This document shows, in pieces, positions 1-45,689 of a DNA stretch of 45,689 bases. How positions within the stretch are numbered: position 1 is the stretch's first letter; the number at the start of each line of letters is the position of its first letter. Origin of the DNA: a virus; the IMG/VR virus record IMGVR_UViG_3300025598_000062, positions 1 through 45,689 of that record; one strand, written 5' to 3'. The notes under the pieces are model-generated. The model was not told the DNA's origin, searched no databases, and worked only from the letters and a program-made list of their open reading frames with translations. The translations under genes and the position numbers were made by a program.

Positions 1-801
1 GCTGGTTATAGCCAAACTACATTTGGAGCCAACACTTTTATTGGTTATCAAGCTGGTTACACGCAAAACAATACTTCCTCCTATACATACAACACTTTTG
101 TTGGATATCAAGCGGGTTACGCCACAACTACCGCTGTTAAATGCACTATCCTTGGCGGCTACAACGGCAACCAAGGTGGCCTAGACATCCGCACATCCTC
201 CAACTACATTGTTCTGTCTGATGGGGATGGGAATCCACGGGGCGTATACGATGGCAGTGGAAATTACATTGTTGGCGGGACAACAGCCACCGCCCTAAGC
301 GGTTTAAATGCGTTCAAGACAATGGTCTCCAACACCACTTACAACGGTGTTGGTGTGGCTCTTGGTTCTGCATCTCAAATTGCTTTCGGTTCACAAGGCC
401 CCGGAACATCCACTTACTATTACGGCTATATGCTTAATGGTTCTGGAACTAACGTTGGCACAATTCAGGTCACCAATACCGCCACGTCGTACAACACTTC
501 TTCCGATATTCGATTAAAAACCGATTTGGGTGTAGTGACGAACACCAATGTCATTCGAGACACTGTTATCCATGATTTTGAATGGAAAACAGACGGCACA
601 AAATCTCGTGGCGTATTTGCTCAAGAAGCAATTCTTGTCAAGCCAGAAGCCGTAACAAAAGGCGTGACGGAAGAACTTAATGAAAACGGACTTCCTAAGC
701 ATGCTTGGGGTGTTGATTACAGCAAATATGTTCCAGACATCATTGTTGAACTTCAAAACCTTCGTGCAGAATTTGATGCCTACAAAGCATCTCACCCTTA
801 A
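1..801 (+). CDS. Tail fibre C-terminus with S74 self-cleaving chaperone (5' partial)
   Basis: The reading frame is open from base 1 to the stop at 801 (266 residues), so the start lies outside the window. The first part has repeated GYQAGY motifs (FIGYQAGY, FVGYQAGY), a beta-rich fibre repeat often found just before S74 domains. The C-terminal ~110 residues match the Peptidase_S74 intramolecular chaperone. SSDIRLKTDL carries the expected self-cleavage serine and is followed by FEWK, GVFAQEA and a coiled-coil-like tail (IIVELQNLRAEFDAYKA). In this family the chaperone helps the trimeric fibre fold and then cuts itself off. The frame at base 1 is in phase with the open fibre frame ending at 45689, so it is probably the end of that gene in a circular genome. 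Confidence 0.9.
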   Translation, partial: AGYSQTTFGANTFIGYQAGYTQNNTSSYTYNTFVGYQAGYATTTAVKCTILGGYNGNQGGLDIRTSSNYIVLSDGDGNPRGVYDGSGNYIVGGTTATALSGLNAFKTMVSNTTYNGVGVALGSASQIAFGSQGPGTSTYYYGYMLNGSGTNVGTIQVTNTATSYNTSSDIRLKTDLGVVTNTNVIRDTVIHDFEWKTDGTKSRGVFAQEAILVKPEAVTKGVTEELNENGLPKHAWGVDYSKYVPDIIVELQNLRAEFDAYKASHP

Positions 802-1399: not shown

Positions 1400-2383
1400 A
1401 TGACAATGGTATCGACAGGGCCAATTAGCATTGGTGGCAACGTCACCAATGGTAGTTTGAACGAAAGTGCCGAACTGGAAATATACAACTACATAAATTT
1501 GTATAACAGTACTGGCACGGCCATTGGTTCCTTAAACGATACCAGCATGAGAACATTGGCCGGAATATCTTCCGGCGCAATATCTTTGGGCAATATGTAC
1601 GGTAAAACGTACCCATTGTCTGGCACGGTTTATAGCTACACATCTGCTGGCTCTACCACACTCACCATCCCAAGTGGCAAGACACAAATGTACGTCATTG
1701 TCATTGGTGGCGGTGGGGGAGGTGGGCGTTCTTACGCTTACAACTTGTCACCTAGTGGTGGCGGCGGCGGTGGCGGTGGTGGTGGTCAGGTTATTTATCC
1801 ATCAAGCGTAATAACAGTGACGCCAAGTCAAGTGATTAGCATTGTTGTTGGCGCTGGAGGAACCACCACCAACGCAGGTGGCAATTCAAGCGTAACGTAT
1901 GGCAGTACGACTTTAACCGCTTTGGGTGGAACCGCTGGTGCAAATGCGCCTTCAAATGATATACGAGGTGGTAATGGCGGTAATGCAGGGAAATATGCAA
2001 CCGCATCAACGTCTTCTGTTTATGCTGGAGGAATAATAACTTCTGGTAATTATCGTGGTGGCGGCGGCGCTGGAACCAATTCCAATGGCGGTAACGGGTC
2101 TAATAGAACTGGCGGCTCTGGCGGAGCAGGATATTCTGGTCACTTCTACGGAATACTGCTTAATTGTTCCGGTGGTGGCGGCGGCGGTGGCGGCGGTGGC
2201 ACTGGTACCGGCGGCTCAAGCAGCAACGGTGGCGGTAATGGCGGTGATGTAAGTTTTGGTATATCTGCCACTGGTATTGGTGGAGGTGGTGGTGGCGGTG
2301 GCTATAACGGCTCAACCGGCGGCGTTATCCAAAATAATGGCGGTAGTGGTCACGCTGGCGCTGTTTACATTTATGTTCCATAA
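1400..2383 (+). CDS. Glycine-rich tail adhesin-like protein
   Basis: The product is 327 residues. Residues 1-75 form an ordinary N-terminal module ending in SGAISLGNMYGKTYPL, a motif common in phage structural proteins. From about residue 100 the chain is dominated by glycine blocks (runs of 7 to 10 Gly) separated by short polar or aromatic stretches. This resembles glycine-rich phage adhesins such as the gp38 type, where polyglycine helices pack at the fibre tip. The position among fibre genes fits receptor binding or a fibre cap. The start could be ATG 1400 or the ATG two codons later. There is no sequence-level proof of adhesin function. Confidence 0.7.
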   Translation: MTMVSTGPISIGGNVTNGSLNESAELEIYNYINLYNSTGTAIGSLNDTSMRTLAGISSGAISLGNMYGKTYPLSGTVYSYTSAGSTTLTIPSGKTQMYVIVIGGGGGGGRSYAYNLSPSGGGGGGGGGGQVIYPSSVITVTPSQVISIVVGAGGTTTNAGGNSSVTYGSTTLTALGGTAGANAPSNDIRGGNGGNAGKYATASTSSVYAGGIITSGNYRGGGGAGTNSNGGNGSNRTGGSGGAGYSGHFYGILLNCSGGGGGGGGGGTGTGGSSSNGGGNGGDVSFGISATGIGGGGGGGGYNGSTGGVIQNNGGSGHAGAVYIYVP

Positions 2384-2407: not shown

Positions 2408-3589
2408 ATGACCCTACTTGCCTATTCAAACAACGCCTCAACCACGTTGCAAAACCCCATCACGGCCTCGTCCACGACACTGGTTTTGGCAACAGGTACG
2501 GGTGCTGAGTTCCCTTCGCCTGGAACTAATGGCGGTTTCTACATCACCCTATTAGATGCAGCCACACAACTAACTTCTGAAATCTGCCTTTGCACCAACC
2601 GCTCTGTTGACAGTTTGACTGTTCAGCGTGGTCAGCAAGGCACTGCTGCTTTGCCTTGGGCTGCTGGCGCTATTGTCAGCCAGTTGGTGACTGCTGGTGA
2701 CATGGCTAACTTCATTCAAGTTGACCAACTCCAAAGTGCTATTTATTTCACAGCTGTTGCCGGTGGTTCTGCCAACAGCATTACCGCTGCTTTGACCAGC
2801 GACCTGACTGCAATTCCCGATGGCTTGACCTTTGTGGTTGAGGCATCTGCTGCCAATACTGGCGCTTGCACCTTGACCTTGAGCTTGGGTTCAGCAATTC
2901 AACCTGCACACCCTATCGTCAAATATGGTCAAGCGCCTTTGGTTGCCAACGATATTCCTGCCCAGTATTACCCCATCTCTTTGACCTACTCAGCAGCTTG
3001 GTCGGCATTTGTGATGAACAATCCGGCCACCAGTGTGGCAAGTGCTATTGCCGGTGGTGCAGCCCAAGAAATCGTTTATCAAACTGGAACCAGTGCAACT
3101 GGCTTCCTGCCAGCGCCAACAACTACTGGTCAGATTCTGCAATACAACGGCTCTACTATTAACTGGGCCAATGTTACCAGCGCCGTGTCTTCATTCAATG
3201 GCCGAACTGGTGCTGTTGTTCCTGCAACTGGTGACTACACCCCAGCCCAAGTGGGTGCGGTTTCTCTCGCTTCGGTCACTGGTGGCAATCAAATCATTAC
3301 GACAAATGGGTATCAATACCTACCAGGCGGTCTAATCCTCCAATGGGGTCAATCAAATACCTTTAGCAGCAACCCTGTTTCGGTGACATTTCCTTTGACC
3401 TTCCCGAATGCTTGTTTGCACTTCAGCGGAAATGCCATCATTCCTTTATCGGGAAGTTCTGGTGTTGACTCGGTTGTTACCACTCAAGCTGCACCTAGCA
3501 ATTACGGCGTGAATGTCCGTATTGGTGGTCAAGGTGGTTCAAGCTTCTTGGTGAGTGCTGCTTTCCTTTGGTTTGCAATCGGGTATTGA
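2408..3589 (+). CDS. Tail fibre with gp53-like C-terminal domain
   Basis: The product is 393 residues. The N-terminal ~105 residues are a module shared with the proteins starting at 3591, 40873 and 43308 (YSNNASTTL..., then VQRGQQGTAALPWAAG and VTAGD). The middle has the fibre repeat GGAAQEIVYQTGTSATGFLP and a common fibre linker, SSFNGRTGAVVPATGDYT. The C-terminal ~100 residues (LPGGLILQWGQ, VTFPLTFPNACL and a terminal FLWFAIGY) match the gp53-like receptor-binding C-terminal domain of tail fibres. It is probably a complete alternative fibre using the shared N-terminal module for attachment. Confidence 0.85.
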   Translation: MTLLAYSNNASTTLQNPITASSTTLVLATGTGAEFPSPGTNGGFYITLLDAATQLTSEICLCTNRSVDSLTVQRGQQGTAALPWAAGAIVSQLVTAGDMANFIQVDQLQSAIYFTAVAGGSANSITAALTSDLTAIPDGLTFVVEASAANTGACTLTLSLGSAIQPAHPIVKYGQAPLVANDIPAQYYPISLTYSAAWSAFVMNNPATSVASAIAGGAAQEIVYQTGTSATGFLPAPTTTGQILQYNGSTINWANVTSAVSSFNGRTGAVVPATGDYTPAQVGAVSLASVTGGNQIITTNGYQYLPGGLILQWGQSNTFSSNPVSVTFPLTFPNACLHFSGNAIIPLSGSSGVDSVVTTQAAPSNYGVNVRIGGQGGSSFLVSAAFLWFAIGY

Positions 3590-3590
3590 T

Positions 3591-4004
3591 ATGACCACGC
3601 TTCTTTACGCCAACAACGCCCAATCAACTCTGGCCGCAGCAGTATCCAGCACGGCCACCACTGCCAATTTGGCAGCAGGTACTGGCTCCCTGTTTCCGGC
3701 TCCAGTATCTGGTCAGGCGTTTTACATGACGTTCAACGATGCGGCCACCGGCATTTTGAAAGAAATTGTTTTGGTCACCGGAATGTCTGGTGATGTGGTG
3801 ACCACAATGGTTCGGGGTCAGCAAGGAACCACGGCTCAGAACTGGTCTGCTGGTGACTTTGCAAGTCAATTCTTCACAGCTGCTGACCAAAACGCAATGA
3901 CGCAAAAAGCCAATTTGAGCATTCTGGCTACCGCATCTATTCCAACACCCACTGTTGCCAATACATCTTTGCATTGGAACGGCACGGCTTACGTTTGGTC
4001 TTAA
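3591..4004 (+). CDS. Short fibre protein: N-terminal attachment module only
   Basis: The start ATG lies one base after the preceding stop, giving 137 residues; an upstream in-frame extension would overlap the previous gene. The whole protein is essentially the shared fibre N-terminal module (LLYANNAQSTL..., MVRGQQGTTAQNWSAGDF). It then stops inside the fibre repeat at PTVANTSLHWNGTAYVWS, where the long fibre at 40873 continues. It could be a small accessory fibre or adaptor, or a truncated remnant of a longer fibre. The clean ending on the repeat boundary and the intact frame argue against recent decay. Confidence 0.75.
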   Translation: MTTLLYANNAQSTLAAAVSSTATTANLAAGTGSLFPAPVSGQAFYMTFNDAATGILKEIVLVTGMSGDVVTTMVRGQQGTTAQNWSAGDFASQFFTAADQNAMTQKANLSILATASIPTPTVANTSLHWNGTAYVWS

Positions 4005-34512: not shown

Positions 34513-36195
34513 ATGGCAACAGCAAAATCAGTCCTAACGATAGACGTTGAAGACGCTAGTTTTAAGCGTTTTGCTGAATCGTTCAAAAAATTCCAAGACA
34601 GCGTTAGCGCCGCCACCAAGGGTGTCAAAGACTTGGGCAGCGAGGGCGCTAAATCTGCACAAAAAGCCAATGTCGCTTGGGAGAAATTCACCAAGGCAAT
34701 GAAGGACTTGAAGAATAATCTTCACGACAATATCGAAGCCATGAAAGAAATGGCTAGGTGGTCGGGTCAAGTTGCCAGCAATTTCACCAACATTGCTTTC
34801 AACGCAGCCAAATGGGTTGCTTTTGGCGCTATTGGCGGTGGTTTTGGATTGGGGGCTTTTGCTGAATCAGTAAGCAGCCGAAGAAAAGAAGCACAAGGTC
34901 TTAACGTCACTACCGGCGAACTAAGAGCCGCTGAAGTCAGCTTCAACCGTTATTTTGATACCAAAGCAGTATTGAATAGCTTGGCTAATCTGGCCACCGA
35001 CAGAAGCAAGGCATACGCTTTTGCTCAGTTTGGATTAACGGGTTATGGCAAGTCTCCGGCAGACCTGCTACCTCAGCTGCTGCCTAAAATCATCGCTGAA
35101 TTCCAAAAACGTGGCGCAAATCAAGCTGCTTATCAATCTTTGAACCTGCAAGAGTTTGGATTGTCGCCAAATGACATGCGTGTTCTTTTGAAGGATTCGG
35201 GCAAAGAGCTTAACGAGGCAATGAAAAAGTTTGCCCAAAACATCGTTAAGTACACGACCTTAGACCAAGAAGATAAAGTAATTCAAGACTTTATGGTCGC
35301 TTTGCACGATGCCGGTCAGGTCATTGAAACGGCTCTTGTCAAGGGCTTGCAGCCCATTATGTTACGTTTGCCAGCTTTGTCGGCAGCTGTGGCTGATTTC
35401 TTTAAAACGCTGCTCGAAAGCGATGAATTCAAAAAATGGATGGATGAACTGGCCGACAAGATCAGGGATTTCGCCAAATATTTATCGTCCACAGAATTTA
35501 AAGAAGACATACAAGCATTCCTAAATGGCGTCAAAAAGATTACCAACGCCATGCTTTGGATTGCAGACCATGTTCCGACCAAAGAAAACTTAAGCCGTAA
35601 AGACATAGAGGTTTCGCCTTGGCTCGATTGGTTCATAAAAAAGAACAATCAGCTTTGGGGCGCTGACGAAACCAAACCCGATAAAAACGAACCTGCCGCA
35701 AAGAAAGTCTCTTTCAATGCAGACCAAAGCAGAAAAATAGAAACAGCTCTTGGCTTTTTCCAGCAGCAAGGTTTAACACGCAATCAAGCTATCGGGATTG
35801 TTGCCAATCTTCAGCGTGAAAGCGGCCTAAATCCTACCGCTCAAGGCGACCTTAACAAAAAGACCGGCGAATACGAAGCCTACGGTATCGCTCAATGGCA
35901 CAAAGACAGGCAAGAGGACTTTGCCAAAGCATTTGGTCATTCAATCAAGCAATCAACGATTGAAGAACAAATGAAGTTCGTGCTGTACGAGTTGCAAAAC
36001 AAAGAAATTAGATACGGAGAAATGCTCAAGAGTGCTGTATCGCCAACACAGGCAACAGCCGCTTATTTGGCCTCTGAACGTCCGCAAGATAGAACTGGTG
36101 AGCTTGCACAACGCAACGCTATTGCCATTTCCATCAACAACAATACTGGTGGCAGCGCAGTTGTTTCTGCCTCTCAACTTGGGACAGCGCAATGA
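34513..36195 (+). CDS. Tape measure protein with C-terminal tail lysozyme
   Basis: The product is 560 residues. The N-terminal part is helical (SFKRFAESFKKFQDSVSAAT, KVIQDFMVALHDAGQVIETA) with one hydrophobic glycine-rich stretch at about 95-118. The C-terminal ~130 residues match the phage tail lysozyme domain: AIGIVANLQRESGLNPTAQG with catalytic E436, then YGIAQWHKDRQEDFAKAFGH and STIEEQMKFVLYELQ. The tape sets tail length, here short; the lysozyme would open peptidoglycan during entry. Confidence 0.9.
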   Translation: MATAKSVLTIDVEDASFKRFAESFKKFQDSVSAATKGVKDLGSEGAKSAQKANVAWEKFTKAMKDLKNNLHDNIEAMKEMARWSGQVASNFTNIAFNAAKWVAFGAIGGGFGLGAFAESVSSRRKEAQGLNVTTGELRAAEVSFNRYFDTKAVLNSLANLATDRSKAYAFAQFGLTGYGKSPADLLPQLLPKIIAEFQKRGANQAAYQSLNLQEFGLSPNDMRVLLKDSGKELNEAMKKFAQNIVKYTTLDQEDKVIQDFMVALHDAGQVIETALVKGLQPIMLRLPALSAAVADFFKTLLESDEFKKWMDELADKIRDFAKYLSSTEFKEDIQAFLNGVKKITNAMLWIADHVPTKENLSRKDIEVSPWLDWFIKKNNQLWGADETKPDKNEPAAKKVSFNADQSRKIETALGFFQQQGLTRNQAIGIVANLQRESGLNPTAQGDLNKKTGEYEAYGIAQWHKDRQEDFAKAFGHSIKQSTIEEQMKFVLYELQNKEIRYGEMLKSAVSPTQATAAYLASERPQDRTGELAQRNAIAISINNNTGGSAVVSASQLGTAQ

Positions 36196-39003: not shown

Positions 39004-40182
39004 ATGACCATTGAACTTACAAACCCTTACACAGTCACGCCACCGGCAACTTTGGCAGCAGAAGCATTTGCTATTGCAGAGTCTTTGTCTCCCGGCATCA
39101 CAAGCCTACCTGCTAATCTTATTGGAGACATGAACGCCACTTCCGCTGGCTCTCTAGCGGTTGCACAATCAGCGTTGGTTGATCTTGTTAACTCTGTAAG
39201 CCCCTATACGGCAAACGCACCAATTCTCTATCAACTTGGCAACGTGTACGGCGTGCAACAAGGCATTGGCAGCAATACTTCGGTTTACGTTGTTTTTTCT
39301 GGAACGCCCGGATTTGTTATCAATGTTGGTTTTACGGTATCTGATGGCACTTATCAATACACTGTGCAAGACGGTGGCATCATCAATGAATTTGGAGTGA
39401 CGCCAGCTTTGTATTGCTTGGCTACTGTGTCCGGCTCTTGGGCAATTACGGCAAATTCTGTCCAACAACTAATTACATCCGTTCCATTCGGAATTAACGT
39501 AACTTGCACCAATCCCAATACAGGCATTCCGGGCGCTGCCGCTCAATCTTTGGCTGATTATCAAGCTCAAGTTATTCAAGCTGGTCAAGCCGTTTCTACT
39601 GGCATTGGCACTCTGGTTCGGACTGCTTTGCAAAATGTTACCGGCGTTCAAGCCCGATTGATTTCGTTTAGGCAAGTTTCTGCTGGCTGGCAAATTTTGG
39701 TAGGTGGTGGTGACCCCTATGCAGTGGCAAATGCCATATATCAATCAATGTTCAACATTCTTGATTTGCAAGGTGCGGCCAGCATTGGCTCCACAGAAAC
39801 TATCACAATCAATGACTATCCTGATGCCTACACCATTAAGTATGTGATTCCTACGGCTCAGAATGTCACTATGACGGTCAACTGGACTACCATTGCTGGC
39901 TCAAACTTTGTGGCAAATTCTGTGGTCACAGCTGCGGCTCAACCGGCTATTGCGGCTTATGTAAACAGCATTTATGTTGGCAAGACCATGAGCTTGCTGG
40001 AACTGCAACAGACTTTTATAGAAGCAACTGCAAGCATCTTAGACCCTACGACTTTGGCAAATTTAACCTTTACCGTGCAAATTAACGGTATGGGTGTTGA
40101 ACCCTCTGGCGTTTTGTTTGCTGGCGACCCAGAAGGCTTTTTCTTGGCTCAATCAAGCGGCATAACTGTGGTTCAAGGCTAA
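39004..40182 (+). CDS. Baseplate J-like protein
   Basis: The product is 392 residues. The segments GSLAVAQSALVDLVNSVSPY, LYQLGNVYGVQQGIGSNTSV, YVVFSGTPGFVINVGFTVSD and SLADYQAQVIQAGQAVSTGI match the baseplate J/Mu gp47 family of wedge proteins. Length is normal. It forms the arms that carry the fibres together with the next protein. Ribosome site TGAGGTAAAAGTC. Confidence 0.92.
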   Translation: MTIELTNPYTVTPPATLAAEAFAIAESLSPGITSLPANLIGDMNATSAGSLAVAQSALVDLVNSVSPYTANAPILYQLGNVYGVQQGIGSNTSVYVVFSGTPGFVINVGFTVSDGTYQYTVQDGGIINEFGVTPALYCLATVSGSWAITANSVQQLITSVPFGINVTCTNPNTGIPGAAAQSLADYQAQVIQAGQAVSTGIGTLVRTALQNVTGVQARLISFRQVSAGWQILVGGGDPYAVANAIYQSMFNILDLQGAASIGSTETITINDYPDAYTIKYVIPTAQNVTMTVNWTTIAGSNFVANSVVTAAAQPAIAAYVNSIYVGKTMSLLELQQTFIEATASILDPTTLANLTFTVQINGMGVEPSGVLFAGDPEGFFLAQSSGITVVQG

Positions 40183-40183
40183 T

Positions 40184-40876
40184 ATGTTAACGCAACAGAT
40201 ACCCGCCTATCCTTATCAGCAATATGCGTCTGATGAAAACATCAACGCATTCTTTGAGGCATATAACCAGCTAAGTCAGCAAAATTTGGACGCCATAAAC
40301 AGCGTTCAATTGCCTATTTTTTTGAATCAAAACGGCGACTTATTGGATTGGTGTGCGGCAGGTATTTACGGTGTTTTTCGTCAACCGCTTTCTAGCGGCA
40401 CTTTTAGACCTGTTGGCCCTTACAACACTTATGGCATGAATGTCCAGCGGCTTGAAGAATACAAGCTAATTGAAAATGCCAAGACATTTAACCCAACTGA
40501 TATTATTTTTCAACGCATTGTGCAATGGAACACGTTTAAGGGTGACGGTTACCAATTCACAATTCGTTGGCTAAAACGCCGTGTTGAACGGTTTTTAAGT
40601 GGTCAAATTTTCCCTGACCAAACTTATCAAATCAGTATTCAATTTCCCAGCCAATACGTTTGCAACATTGTTTTAAGTAGCGCCGTTAGAACGGTTCTTG
40701 AATCAGCCGACTATAACGTGCCCAATTACAACCAGTTAGGGGCAGCATTTAACTACGTTAAGACCGAATCATCCAACCCTACGCCAATGGCTTACGCAGC
40801 CGACCTTCAAGCTGCTGTTGCTTCTGGTATTTTGTTGCTGCCTTTTCAATACACATTTAACGTGGTGATCTTATGA
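40184..40876 (+). CDS. Baseplate-to-fibre connector protein (gp48/gpI-like)
   Basis: The product is 230 residues: YASDENINAFFEAYNQLSQQ, NLDAINSVQLPIFLNQNGDL, LLDWCAAGIYGVFRQPL, TIRWLKRRVERFLSG. It follows baseplate J and directly precedes a fibre with an ATGA overlap, which is the position of Mu gp48/P2 gpI proteins. Tentative family, solid context. Confidence 0.8.
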   Translation: MLTQQIPAYPYQQYASDENINAFFEAYNQLSQQNLDAINSVQLPIFLNQNGDLLDWCAAGIYGVFRQPLSSGTFRPVGPYNTYGMNVQRLEEYKLIENAKTFNPTDIIFQRIVQWNTFKGDGYQFTIRWLKRRVERFLSGQIFPDQTYQISIQFPSQYVCNIVLSSAVRTVLESADYNVPNYNQLGAAFNYVKTESSNPTPMAYAADLQAAVASGILLLPFQYTFNVVIL

Positions 40877-43311
40877 ATTCACAGTTTTTATTCGCCAACA
40901 ATGCCAGCACCACGTTGGCTGCGCCTATCACTTCTTCGGCAGTTCAATTTACTGTTTATCCGGGTCAAGGACAGCTGTTCCCAAGCCCTCAAAACGGCCA
41001 AGTATTTACGGTCACGATTACATCCGCTTCTACACCGAACTTGATGGAGATCATGTATTGCACCGCCAGATATGGCGATCAATTCACGGTTATTCGGGGT
41101 CAAGAAGGAACCACGGCTCAATCTTGGAGCGGCGGCGATTACGTCAACAACTTTATTACTGCTGGCACGGCTGCGACTTTTGTTCAAAGCCCCAATACTT
41201 TGACGCCCGGCACTTATGGCTCCTCGGTTCAAGTTCCTGTCATCACCATCAACTCTACCGGCGGTATTACAGCCATTTCTCAGGCCAATACCACCACCAA
41301 TACCTGTCAAGGTGGCTGGAACGCCTCGACCAACACGCCAACTTTGACTTCTAGTGTTGGCACAGTTGGTTACTATTATTTTGTGACTGTCGCTGGCAAT
41401 ACCAACCTGAACGGCATTTCCACTTGGAATGTGGGCGATCAGGCCATTTTTGCCAATGGTCAATGGTTCCGATTGATTGGCAACACCACCAATGTGTTTG
41501 GCAGCTTGACCGTGACCGGATTGAGCGGCTTGATGTATGCCAACGGTACATCGCCCATTTCTAATGCCACTGGCGGTCAAATTGTCACCGCTATCGGCAA
41601 CACGCCTATCGCCAAGGCAACGTCAATTGATGGCGGTGCGGCCAACCAAATTGCGGTTCAGTCTGGCACTGGGGCAACTACATTTATTCCAGCGCCAACA
41701 ATTGCCAACACTTACCTCTATTGGGGTGGGGCTAGTTTCCTTTGGGGTTCTGTGGGCACAGGGCCAGGGACTACCGGTCAGTACATCACTTTCAACAATA
41801 CAGGGTCTGGCGCTGGCTCTGGCGTGATATTTAACGGTGGTACAGCCCAAACCATCAGCTACAACACAATCGGCGCTCCTAGCACCGCTGGTGTTGGTGC
41901 AACCGGCACTTGGGGTATCAGCATTTCTGGCAATGCCCTGACCTCATCAAAAGCCAATAACGTGGCCGCTGGTGTTGCCAATCAAATCGTTTATCAAACC
42001 GGCTCCAACAGCACAGGGTTTATCCCTGCTCCCACAACGTCTGGCACATTCTTAGAGTGGAATGGCTCTGGATTCGTTTGGGCAGCAGCTGGCGGTGGCG
42101 GTGGCGGCATTACCCAATACGCCTTGACCATGAACAATTCGGGCACTGGTGTTACTTCCGGCTCGTCTTTTAATGGTTCAGTGGCTCAAACTTTGAGCTA
42201 CAACACAATCGGCGCACCTAGCGTCACCGGAACCAATGCCACTGGCACTTGGGCCATCTCGGTGACAGGTAGTGCGGCCACCGCCACGACTGCGAACAAT
42301 GTGGCTGGCGGTGCAGCTTCTCAGTTGCTATATCAAAGCTCGGCTGGTTCAACCGCTTTTGTGTCTTCGCCCACCATTAACGGCACAGTTTTGACTTGGA
42401 ATGGCTCCACATTTGTTTGGACATCTCCAAGCGGAACAGTTGCCAATTCCATTACTTTTAACAATGGCGGCACTGGTGCAACCAGCGGTTCATCGTTCAA
42501 CGGCTCAACACCTTTGACGATTAGCTACAACACAGTCGGTGCGCCCAGTGCTTCTGGAGCCAATGCCTCTGGTACTTGGGGCATCTCTATTTCTGGCAAT
42601 GCAGCCACGGCCACTTCTGCCTCGACTGCGGCCACCGCAACATCTGCAACGACTGCCACCACAGCCACGACTGCCTCCAACATTGCTGGCGGTGTGAACA
42701 ATGAAATTGTGGTGCAGACCGGCGCTGGCACAACATCGTTTATTGTTGCCCCCACCACGGCCAGCACCTATTTGGAGTGGAACGGCACGACATTTGTTTG
42801 GGCCACTGTTTCCAGCGGCTCAGTTGCCAACCCTGTTACTTTCAATAATTCGGGTACTGGAGCCACTTCTGGAACGACTTTTAACGGTTCATCTGCTGTT
42901 ACTGTCAGCTACAACACTTTGGGCGCTCCAAGCATCACAGGTGTGAATGCTACTGGCACATGGTCTATCAGCATCTTGGGAACAGCGGCCACGGCCAACA
43001 ATATCGCTGCCGGAACTGCTGGTGCGGTGCTTTATCAAAGCTCGGCAGGAACCACTGCGTTTTCTTCTGTTGGCACAACTGGGCAGCTTTTCACCTCCAA
43101 TGGTTCTGCCACCCCAGCATGGACATCGCCTTCTACGCTGACAGTTGGCACAGCATCAGTTTCTAATGCAATTTCTAACTCTGGCGGCTGGTCAGTTACG
43201 CCATCTGGGACTAAACTCTACTTTAGCTACAACGGCACGAATGTGGCCTCTTTGGATTCATCGGGCAACTTCATCGCTCTCGCTAACGTCACTGCATACG
43301 GAACACCATGA
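40873..43311 (+). CDS. Long tail fibre with internal repeats
   Basis: The product is 812 residues. Residues 1-105 are the shared attachment module (FLFANNASTTLAAPITSSAV, VIRGQEGTTAQSWSGGDYVN). Residues ~110-245 resemble a domain also present in the fibre at 43308 (CQGGWNASTNTPTLTSSVGT). Four full copies and a partial copy of a 107-127 residue repeat follow (VYQTG-FIPAPT, LEWNGSGFVW, FNGS, SYNT-GAPS, ATGTW-ISI-G). The end (SGTKLYFSYNGTNVASLDSS) has no S74 domain. It overlaps the next fibre by ATGA. Confidence 0.9.
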   Translation: MNSQFLFANNASTTLAAPITSSAVQFTVYPGQGQLFPSPQNGQVFTVTITSASTPNLMEIMYCTARYGDQFTVIRGQEGTTAQSWSGGDYVNNFITAGTAATFVQSPNTLTPGTYGSSVQVPVITINSTGGITAISQANTTTNTCQGGWNASTNTPTLTSSVGTVGYYYFVTVAGNTNLNGISTWNVGDQAIFANGQWFRLIGNTTNVFGSLTVTGLSGLMYANGTSPISNATGGQIVTAIGNTPIAKATSIDGGAANQIAVQSGTGATTFIPAPTIANTYLYWGGASFLWGSVGTGPGTTGQYITFNNTGSGAGSGVIFNGGTAQTISYNTIGAPSTAGVGATGTWGISISGNALTSSKANNVAAGVANQIVYQTGSNSTGFIPAPTTSGTFLEWNGSGFVWAAAGGGGGGITQYALTMNNSGTGVTSGSSFNGSVAQTLSYNTIGAPSVTGTNATGTWAISVTGSAATATTANNVAGGAASQLLYQSSAGSTAFVSSPTINGTVLTWNGSTFVWTSPSGTVANSITFNNGGTGATSGSSFNGSTPLTISYNTVGAPSASGANASGTWGISISGNAATATSASTAATATSATTATTATTASNIAGGVNNEIVVQTGAGTTSFIVAPTTASTYLEWNGTTFVWATVSSGSVANPVTFNNSGTGATSGTTFNGSSAVTVSYNTLGAPSITGVNATGTWSISILGTAATANNIAAGTAGAVLYQSSAGTTAFSSVGTTGQLFTSNGSATPAWTSPSTLTVGTASVSNAISNSGGWSVTPSGTKLYFSYNGTNVASLDSSGNFIALANVTAYGTP
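41620..43030 (+). repeat. Four tandem coding repeats of about 320-380 bp plus a partial fifth
   Basis: Units begin near 41620, 41950, 42290, 42670 and 42990, each opening with AANNVAGG-like codons, then VYQTG, FIPAPT, LEWNG-FVW, FNGS, SYNT-GAPS and GTW-ISI-G. Unit 3 is extended by an Ala/Thr/Ser stretch (TSASTAATATSATTATTATT). The copies are diverged at DNA level but clearly homologous. The fibre at 43308 has one related unit. Confidence 0.8.
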
Positions 43312-45689
43312 GCATTCAATACCTATTTGCCAATAACGCCTCTACCACCCTAGCTTCACCAATCAGCGCATCGTCTACGACGATTTCGGTGTACCCAGGC
43401 CAAGGGGCATTGTTTCCTAGCCCCACCTCGGGTCAAGGTTTTACTGTCACTCTGACAGATGCGGCAACAGGTAAATTGACTGAAATCATGCTGTGTACCA
43501 ACCGTACCGGCGACACCTTTACTGTTACTCGGGCGCAAGAGGGAACCAATGCTTTGGCTTGGGGCGCTGGCGATTTTGTCAACAACTTCGTGACTGCTGG
43601 CTCTGCGACCAACTGGATTCAGTCTTCTGCTTTTGGCAGTCCTCCCGGCACTTATGGCACGGCCACCCAAATCCCAGTTCTGACAGTGAATGCCAGCGGC
43701 CAATTGACCGCCATTTCGACTGTGACCACCACTGCCAACTATTGCGCTGGTGGCTGGAACGCTGCAACCAACACCCCGACTTTGGTGTCTAGCATTGGTC
43801 AAAACGGCCAATACTATGTGGTGACGGTTGCTGGAACGACCAATTTGAACGGGTATGACAACTGGCAAATTGGTGACCAAGCCCTGTTCGCTAATGGTGC
43901 ATGGCTTCGTGTTGCCGGTTCAGAATCGGCTGCTTTCCACGACATTACTGTCTCTAGCCTGACAGGTTATATGTATGCCAATGGCTCGTCATTGGTGACT
44001 GCTTCGCCAACAATCCCCAATTCTGGTTTGGCTCATAGCACCATTACGGTGAATGGCACGACTTTGACTTTGGGGGATGTGGGTGACACCATTACGGCCA
44101 ATACGCCCAATGCGGTTACTTTTAACAACTCTGGCTCTGGCACATCGTCAGGAAACAGTTTTAATGGTGGCACGGCCATTACAGTGAGCTACAACACCAT
44201 TGGAGCGCCAAGCGTTACAGGTACAGGCGCTTCTGGCACTTGGGGCATTGGCATCACTGGCAATGCTGCCAGCGCCACAGTTGCCACCAATTTGCAGGGC
44301 GGCTCTGCCTATGCTTTGCCTTATCAGTCTGCTGCTGGCACGACTGCTTACTTGTCGGCTGGCACGGCTGGTTATGTTTTGACCACCAACGGCACAGGCT
44401 CGGCTCCAACTTGGACTTCTGTGGGCAGTGCTGCTGTGACCACATTTAATGCTGGCACAACTGGATTTACGCCAAGCACGGCCACTTCTGGTGCTATCAC
44501 CTTGGCTGGCACTTTGAATGCAGCACATGGCGGCACAGGTGCGACCTCGTTGACAGGCTATGTCTATGGCAATGGCACTGGCACAATGACTGCCAGCGCA
44601 ACCATACCTACAACGGCACTCAGTGGCACGATCACCAATTCCCAGTTGGCGAACTCTAGCATTACGGTCAATGGTACTAGCATTGCTTTGGGTGGCAGCG
44701 GAACGATTACTGCCGCAAATCCCAACGCCCTTACTATTGGTGCTGGACTTTCTGGCGGCTCATATGACGGCTCCAGCGCAGTAACAATTGCAAATACTGG
44801 TGTATTAACTTTTTCTGGCGGCACAACTGGCCTAACCCCATCAAGCGCCACTAATGGTGCTGTGACACTCGCTGGAACACTTAACGTGGCAAACGGCGGT
44901 ACAGGTTTGACCTCGTTGACTGCTGGGTATATTCCTTACGGCAATGGAACTGGTGCATTTGCCTCCAATTCTGGTTTCACCTTTATTGGCACTACTTTGA
45001 CTTCTCCGGTTTTGGTTGTTAATTCAACAACCAGCACCACGCCAAATTTGACTTTTAATGCCAGCAACTCCGGCATTACATCTGGCGCAACAATTGCAAA
45101 CAATTATTTGCAAACGGTCATTCAAAACAAATCCGGTACTTCTGGCGCATCGACCAACTACGTTTTGTCTAATGATTTGGGTACTGATTCGTCTTATTAC
45201 GGCGAATTTGGTATGAATTCTTCTGGTTTTACGGCCAGCGGAACCATTCCTGATTTTTACTCAATTAACAACGGCGTGTATTTTTCAGGCCATGATGGTG
45301 ACATTTCTGTTGGCTCGGGCAATGGGTATAAGTTGTATTTCCCTTGGGGGTCTACTGGCGCATCGGCTCACGTTATCAATGCGTCCGGCGCTTTGGGATT
45401 TAGCACCAATCGAGGAACAAGTGCGGCAACCTCTGGAACCACAGGTTATGGCACATCTGGTCAGGCTTTGGTGTCTGGCGGCTCAAGTGCTGCACCATCT
45501 TGGCAAACTTTGCCTACCAGCGGTGGCGGTACTGGGATTTCAAGCTATACAGCCAACCAAGTTTTATATGCATCAAGTACAACCACTTTAGCTCAGTCTG
45601 CCAATTTGCAGTTCAATGGTACGACTTTAACTGTTGCCAATGACGCCTCTATCCACGGACTGACTGTGGGTCTGGGGGGAGGTAGTGTT
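43308..45689 (+). CDS. Long tail fibre (3' partial, runs off the window)
   Basis: ATG 43308 overlaps the previous stop, and the frame stays open for 794 codons to the last base. The shared attachment module comes first (YLFANNASTTLASPISASST, TRAQEGTNALAWGAGDFVNN), then a CAGGWNAATNTPTLVSSIG domain, one copy of the FNGG/SYNTIGAPS repeat and several GGTG-SLTGY beta repeats. The last residues, DASIHGLTVGLGGGSV, are the typical lead-in to an S74 chaperone, which is what base 1 encodes. If joined, the fibre is 1060 residues. Confidence 0.93.
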   Translation, partial: MSIQYLFANNASTTLASPISASSTTISVYPGQGALFPSPTSGQGFTVTLTDAATGKLTEIMLCTNRTGDTFTVTRAQEGTNALAWGAGDFVNNFVTAGSATNWIQSSAFGSPPGTYGTATQIPVLTVNASGQLTAISTVTTTANYCAGGWNAATNTPTLVSSIGQNGQYYVVTVAGTTNLNGYDNWQIGDQALFANGAWLRVAGSESAAFHDITVSSLTGYMYANGSSLVTASPTIPNSGLAHSTITVNGTTLTLGDVGDTITANTPNAVTFNNSGSGTSSGNSFNGGTAITVSYNTIGAPSVTGTGASGTWGIGITGNAASATVATNLQGGSAYALPYQSAAGTTAYLSAGTAGYVLTTNGTGSAPTWTSVGSAAVTTFNAGTTGFTPSTATSGAITLAGTLNAAHGGTGATSLTGYVYGNGTGTMTASATIPTTALSGTITNSQLANSSITVNGTSIALGGSGTITAANPNALTIGAGLSGGSYDGSSAVTIANTGVLTFSGGTTGLTPSSATNGAVTLAGTLNVANGGTGLTSLTAGYIPYGNGTGAFASNSGFTFIGTTLTSPVLVVNSTTSTTPNLTFNASNSGITSGATIANNYLQTVIQNKSGTSGASTNYVLSNDLGTDSSYYGEFGMNSSGFTASGTIPDFYSINNGVYFSGHDGDISVGSGNGYKLYFPWGSTGASAHVINASGALGFSTNRGTSAATSGTTGYGTSGQALVSGGSSAAPSWQTLPTSGGGTGISSYTANQVLYASSTTTLAQSANLQFNGTTLTVANDASIHGLTVGLGGGSV

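Follow-up and report, generated by a model that had tools for sequence, protein, structure and literature searches.

A freshwater phage with four tail fiber genes that begin with one docking domain and differ in their exchangeable ends

Why does one phage genome hold four fiber genes that begin alike, and do their products dock at one site on the virion or at several? This question is raised by a viral DNA of 45,689 nucleotides (IMG/VR record IMGVR_UViG_3300025598_000062, positions 1 to 45,689; referred to here as the window). A first-pass annotation had noted that the genes starting at 2408, 3591, 40873, and 43308 open with the same module and then diverge, and it had proposed alternative or branched fibers plugged into one socket as a multi-receptor design.

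The first ~105 residues of the four products are homologous. Six pairwise alignments of the modules gave 44 to 67 identities over 98 to 106 aligned residues, with local scores of 210 to 357 against means of 32 to 35 for shuffled sequences (highest shuffle, 67), corresponding to z values of 32 to 54, and the common module of the first-pass annotation is thereby borne out. The closest pair is 40873/43308, with 67 of 106 residues identical. The alignment of the module that had been suggested as a check left 31 columns invariant across all four genes, and N8, G30, P36, E58, R75, T80, and T96 are invariant in an alignment of 71 module sequences. A low-complexity or chance match is ruled out by the shuffles, by the conservation over the 71 sequences, and by a structure match (see below); the predicted fold is confident.

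A sequence search of the PDB matched the module to residues 1 to 100 of 8JOV chain 1 (E value, 9.2e-17; 1.2e-15 with the 43308 module alone), which was the sole clear relative of the module among solved structures. This chain is a tail fiber of 439 aa that is present in 18 copies, with 116 of the 439 residues resolved; the structure, the tail of Ralstonia phage GP4, is credited to Zheng et al. (2023, J Mol Biol 435:168258) in a citation in PMC11784390. For the 3591 product, an AlphaFold2 model built with 62 relatives (pLDDT, 88; 91 to 98 over the module) was matched by Foldseek to 8jov_1, "Portal-tail complex of phage GP4" (E value, 4.9e-6; TM scores, 0.66/0.77; rmsd, 1.3 A), the only match below 0.001. 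The 116 resolved residues of the GP4 fiber fit an ordered anchor on a flexible fiber, and the 18 copies fit what would be six trimers.

The module lies at or near the start codon in all four window genes and in the fiber ORFs of relatives. PHROGs 6427, 8469, 25419, and 30299 bear it N-terminally, and 63 of 63 modules match all four; phrog_11439, phrog_25788, and phrog_1101 match it internally, not N-terminally, and the module fold is thus not used only as an anchor. We found no structure in which a contractile baseplate bears the module. Most likely, the module is the N-terminal virion anchor of tail fibers: the idea of an attachment module at the N terminus, joined to distal parts that vary, is well supported by the match to the GP4 anchor, by the N-terminal placement, and by the swapping of tips described below.

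The four genes, all on the plus strand, make up a single region. The ORF at 43308..45689 stops on a complete codon at the end of the window and reads on in frame from base 1 to a stop at 801, and the joined product (fiber B) is 1060 aa long with one stop. A relative, L004, encodes an unbroken 1183-aa homolog of fiber B between the same flanks; its DNA is 92.9 to 96.5% identical to that of the window within aligned blocks. In L111, a protein is continuous across the equivalent of the join (ANDASISGLTVGKGGGSV, then the tip). Given the in-frame join, the intact homolog, and the L111 alignment, the window is circularly permuted and was cut inside a fiber gene, and the gene order is 40873, 43308, 2408, 3591, as in L004, which has all four module genes. 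The same three observations rule out a 43308 fiber that terminates at the contig edge, and the gene end that had been placed at 45689 is superseded by the continuation into 1 to 801. A direct end repeat of 12 to 199 bases was looked for at the window ends (45689/1) and was absent. An exact 42-mer spanning the join had no match in IMG/VR, which means only that the database holds no near-identical contig across the join.

Fiber gene A (40873..43311) encodes 812 aa, comprising the anchor module (40873..41190), a second domain (41206..41592), and repeated shaft units. This second domain (residues ~112 to 240), a further domain of ~130 residues, is also found in fiber B, and the two products are closely alike over it. 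Fiber gene B has the first 794 of its 1060 codons at 43308..45689, with the anchor module at 43308..43625 (like that of fiber A, supported by the alignments and the 8JOV match). The C-terminal 266 aa of fiber B (1..801) form an exchangeable tip ending in Peptidase_S74, an intramolecular chaperone (Pfam, 26.2 bits; curated cut-off, 22). Fiber gene C (2408..3589; 393 aa) consists of the module (2408..2722, from the alignments), one shaft motif, and a Gp53-like_C domain (Pfam, 61.3 bits; curated cut-off, 24.9). The gp53-like and S74-type C termini of the first-pass annotation are both above the Pfam cut-offs. Gene D (3591..4004; 137 aa) is a stub fiber, in which the anchor module (3591..3905, from the Foldseek match to 8jov_1) is followed by one shaft motif as its C terminus (PTPTVANTSLHWNGTAYVWS). 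An adhesin-like gene without the module (1400..2383; Gly_rich_2, Pfam 59.6 bits) lies between the module fibers.

Fiber A has four copies of the shaft motif, P-PT..T-L-WNG..F-W (residues 273, 385, 500, and 626), and fiber C has one. Because fibers A and B have the second domain in common and the shaft motif of fiber A recurs in fiber C and gene D, the distal parts do not "diverge completely" and gene 3591 is not "module only," as had been stated; a bare module is ruled out for 3591 by the motif at its C terminus. Over 71 module proteins, the distal parts include Collagen (9 proteins), Gp53-like_C (8), S74 (5), and Collar (4).

To have several copies in one genome is usual. Among 77 related IMG/VR loci with the module (L004 to L080), many of which are short contigs, 59 carry at least two copies (51 with two, 7 with three, and 1 with four). 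In cultured phages, there are four module genes in BcepIL02 (gp58, gp59, gp61, and gp62, all of which begin with the module), three in JC1, two adjacent ones in PdC23, and two in RothD. Short module proteins, with ~51 to 108 residues past the module and unrelated C termini, are encoded in L006, L010, L011, L013, L014, L029, L069, L074, and L076. A search of genome contigs, directed at the host, gave eight matches, in mixed metagenome-assembled genomes.

Comparison with L004 reveals how the fibers change. Fiber B is ~98% identical between the two genomes up to residue ~750 and unrelated beyond it; both versions have S74-like ends (assigned by Pfam in the window and by eye in L004). Relatives of the window tip were found in 81 ORFs on other contigs, 62 of which are uncut at the 5' end, and none of these carries the module. 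Anchors and tips thus recombine, and the swapping for which related genomes were to be searched is seen in the exchanged tip of the 43308 fiber. Fibers A and C are 99.1% and 99.0% identical to their L004 counterparts (dN/dS, 0.04 and 0.03), and gene D is intact there and 97.8% identical (dN/dS, 0.09 on few sites). The DUF2612 gene upstream of fiber A (see below), aligned to L004 positions 516 to 1211, has a dS of ~1.5, compared with 0.10 to 0.21 for fibers A and C and the stub and 0.01 for the glycine-rich gene. Judged from these sequence distances, the fiber cluster may have been transferred as one unit among phages that are otherwise more distantly related.

A tree of 76 modules sorts the copies by gene position, not by genome. 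A first-position clade holds 12 modules (support, 100/98), and a second clade holds 16, mostly second-position copies (99/81); the 3591-type and 2408-type clades have supports of 100/97 and 92/83, respectively. The 40873 and 43308 modules are mutually nearest (100/95), and their split is, on the evidence of the tree, a later duplication. For 62 of 68 modules, the nearest module lies in another genome and not in their own. Forcing the modules of the window, L004, and L005 into one clade was 46 log units worse, with an AU P value of 0.051, which is not a formal rejection.

On balance, we think it probable that the four genes carry GP4-type anchors that arose by old duplications, bear exchanged shafts and tips, and dock as homotrimers at the baseplate periphery, each with its own position or partner. 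The old duplications gave rise to several paralogous fiber genes per genome, and each paralog keeps a conserved anchor, whereas its shaft and tip are traded among phages. Each fiber would form a homotrimer with its anchor probably on the baseplate periphery, and the paralogs would most likely use positions or partners of their own and not compete for one interchangeable socket. The docking partner would most likely be the DUF2612/gpJ wedge encoded directly upstream.

The gene for this candidate partner, a DUF2612-type baseplate protein (40184..40876; phrog_8212, E value 8.6e-47), overlaps the start of fiber A by ATGA and stands beside the gene for a baseplate J/wedge protein (39004..40182; phrog_6, E value 4.3e-27). 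Its homolog in PdC23 is annotated as DUF2612. Of the 69 sequences in which the DUF2612 gene was found, the window among them, 53 have a module gene that starts within 400 bp downstream of it. A sequence search of solved structures with the DUF2612 protein returned nothing relevant, and its model (pLDDT, 75) gave weak matches only, the first four of which are the baseplates of Pam3, PhiTE, phiCD508, and Mu. Elsewhere in the window (34513..36195), a 560-aa protein in the putative tape-measure position has a Phage_lysozyme2 tail-lysozyme domain at residues 411 to 541.

The module fibers might instead be competitors for one set of baseplate sites, in which case individual virions would not be alike and it is the population, taken together, that would have several receptors; we regard this as unlikely, though worth serious consideration. 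The same invariant residues are present in all modules, and a mixed population has been proposed for multi-fiber Lessievirus phages in a passage of PMC10269572 that cites Gill et al. Virion proteomics of JC1 also points this way, since only gp56 is listed among its module fibers gp56, gp57, and gp59 (PMC9144972). This one in three comes close to the finding that the first-pass annotation had named as contrary to its proposal, a single one of the four fibers in virions, but JC1 is a relative and the result is one of non-detection. Against competition for one set of sites, the modules keep separate position-wise identities and are not homogenized inside genomes. Moreover, equivalent fibers would be expected to be lost or interchanged, yet each of the four window genes shows purifying selection (dN/dS, 0.03 to 0.09 outside the swapped tip). 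Given the position-wise clustering of modules, including the 62 of 68 nearest to a module of another genome, the single socket proposed earlier is not supported, although the same clustering can also be explained by drift of paralogs at one socket.

More than one fiber may be displayed per particle, although the JC1 proteomics speaks against this. In the Anabaena myophage A-1(L), a single contractile baseplate bears two fiber types, each with its own receptor (PMC10966104); by this analogy, co-display of several module fibers is mechanically possible. The short and long tail fibers of A-1(L), with different sites and receptors on one baseplate, resemble the window fibers in function; the module, searched against PDB sequences, matched no A-1(L) chain, and the likeness is one of analogy and not homology. 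A multi-receptor design is plausible. We consider it doubtful that the anchors are position specific and hold a fixed set of several fibers in which the 137-aa stub serves as a cap or spacer without a receptor tip.

It is very improbable that gene 3591 is the decaying remnant of a long fiber and that only three fibers work: the 3591-type anchor, which has a 32-residue tail in the window, does head ORFs of 490 to 1220 aa in L011, L017, and L009, but the stub is intact in L004 under the constraint given above, and roughly a dozen other viruses also encode short module proteins. We give as little credence to a branched complex, with one fiber on the tail and the others hung from it like the tail spikes of Ackermannviridae: several fiber genes do lie in one cluster, and the extra second domain of 40873 and 43308 could pair them, but in the known complex the virion anchor is confined to TSP4, with linkage through gp10-like XD domains (PMC11414711), whereas all four window proteins have the anchor and Pfam and PHROG searches matched no gp10-like XD linking domain in them, so that the "branched" fibers proposed earlier are not supported.

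The window comes from a freshwater phage with four fiber genes, one docking domain, and exchangeable ends, and as an example it is clear but ordinary, since the same arrangement already exists in cultured phages such as BcepIL02. Among phages with contractile-type baseplate genes, a fiber anchor whose structure was solved in a podophage is widespread, and their genomes usually have more than one copy of it. The descent of the anchors by position offers a testable alternative to the published mixed-virion idea and bears on multi-receptor host range; only this descent and the conserved 137-aa stub are potentially surprising to specialists.

Among known systems, the GP4 fiber has ~100 N-terminal residues that are homologous to the window module and have the same fold, but GP4 is a podophage, its fiber docks on a different tail, and its solved particle has one module-bearing sequence. 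Ackermannviridae have four receptor-binding proteins whose N-terminal parts are conserved and whose tips vary, as in the window, but neither the single-member anchor nor the XD linkage of that family is seen here. PdC23 (Certevirus, Pantoea) and the Klebsiella phages RothC, RothD, and Chronis have gpJ, DUF2612, and module fibers in the same order as the window, with two module genes compared with its four. Lessievirus phages have multiple fiber genes with core homology (PMC10269572). BcepIL02 and other Lessievirus (Bcep22-like) phages differ from the window in their podophage gene order, in modules that are only ~35 to 45% identical, and in lacking a stub gene, but their clustered fiber genes are all headed by the module and differ in their distal parts, and compared with BcepIL02 and JC1, the window has this same kind of multi-fiber arrangement.
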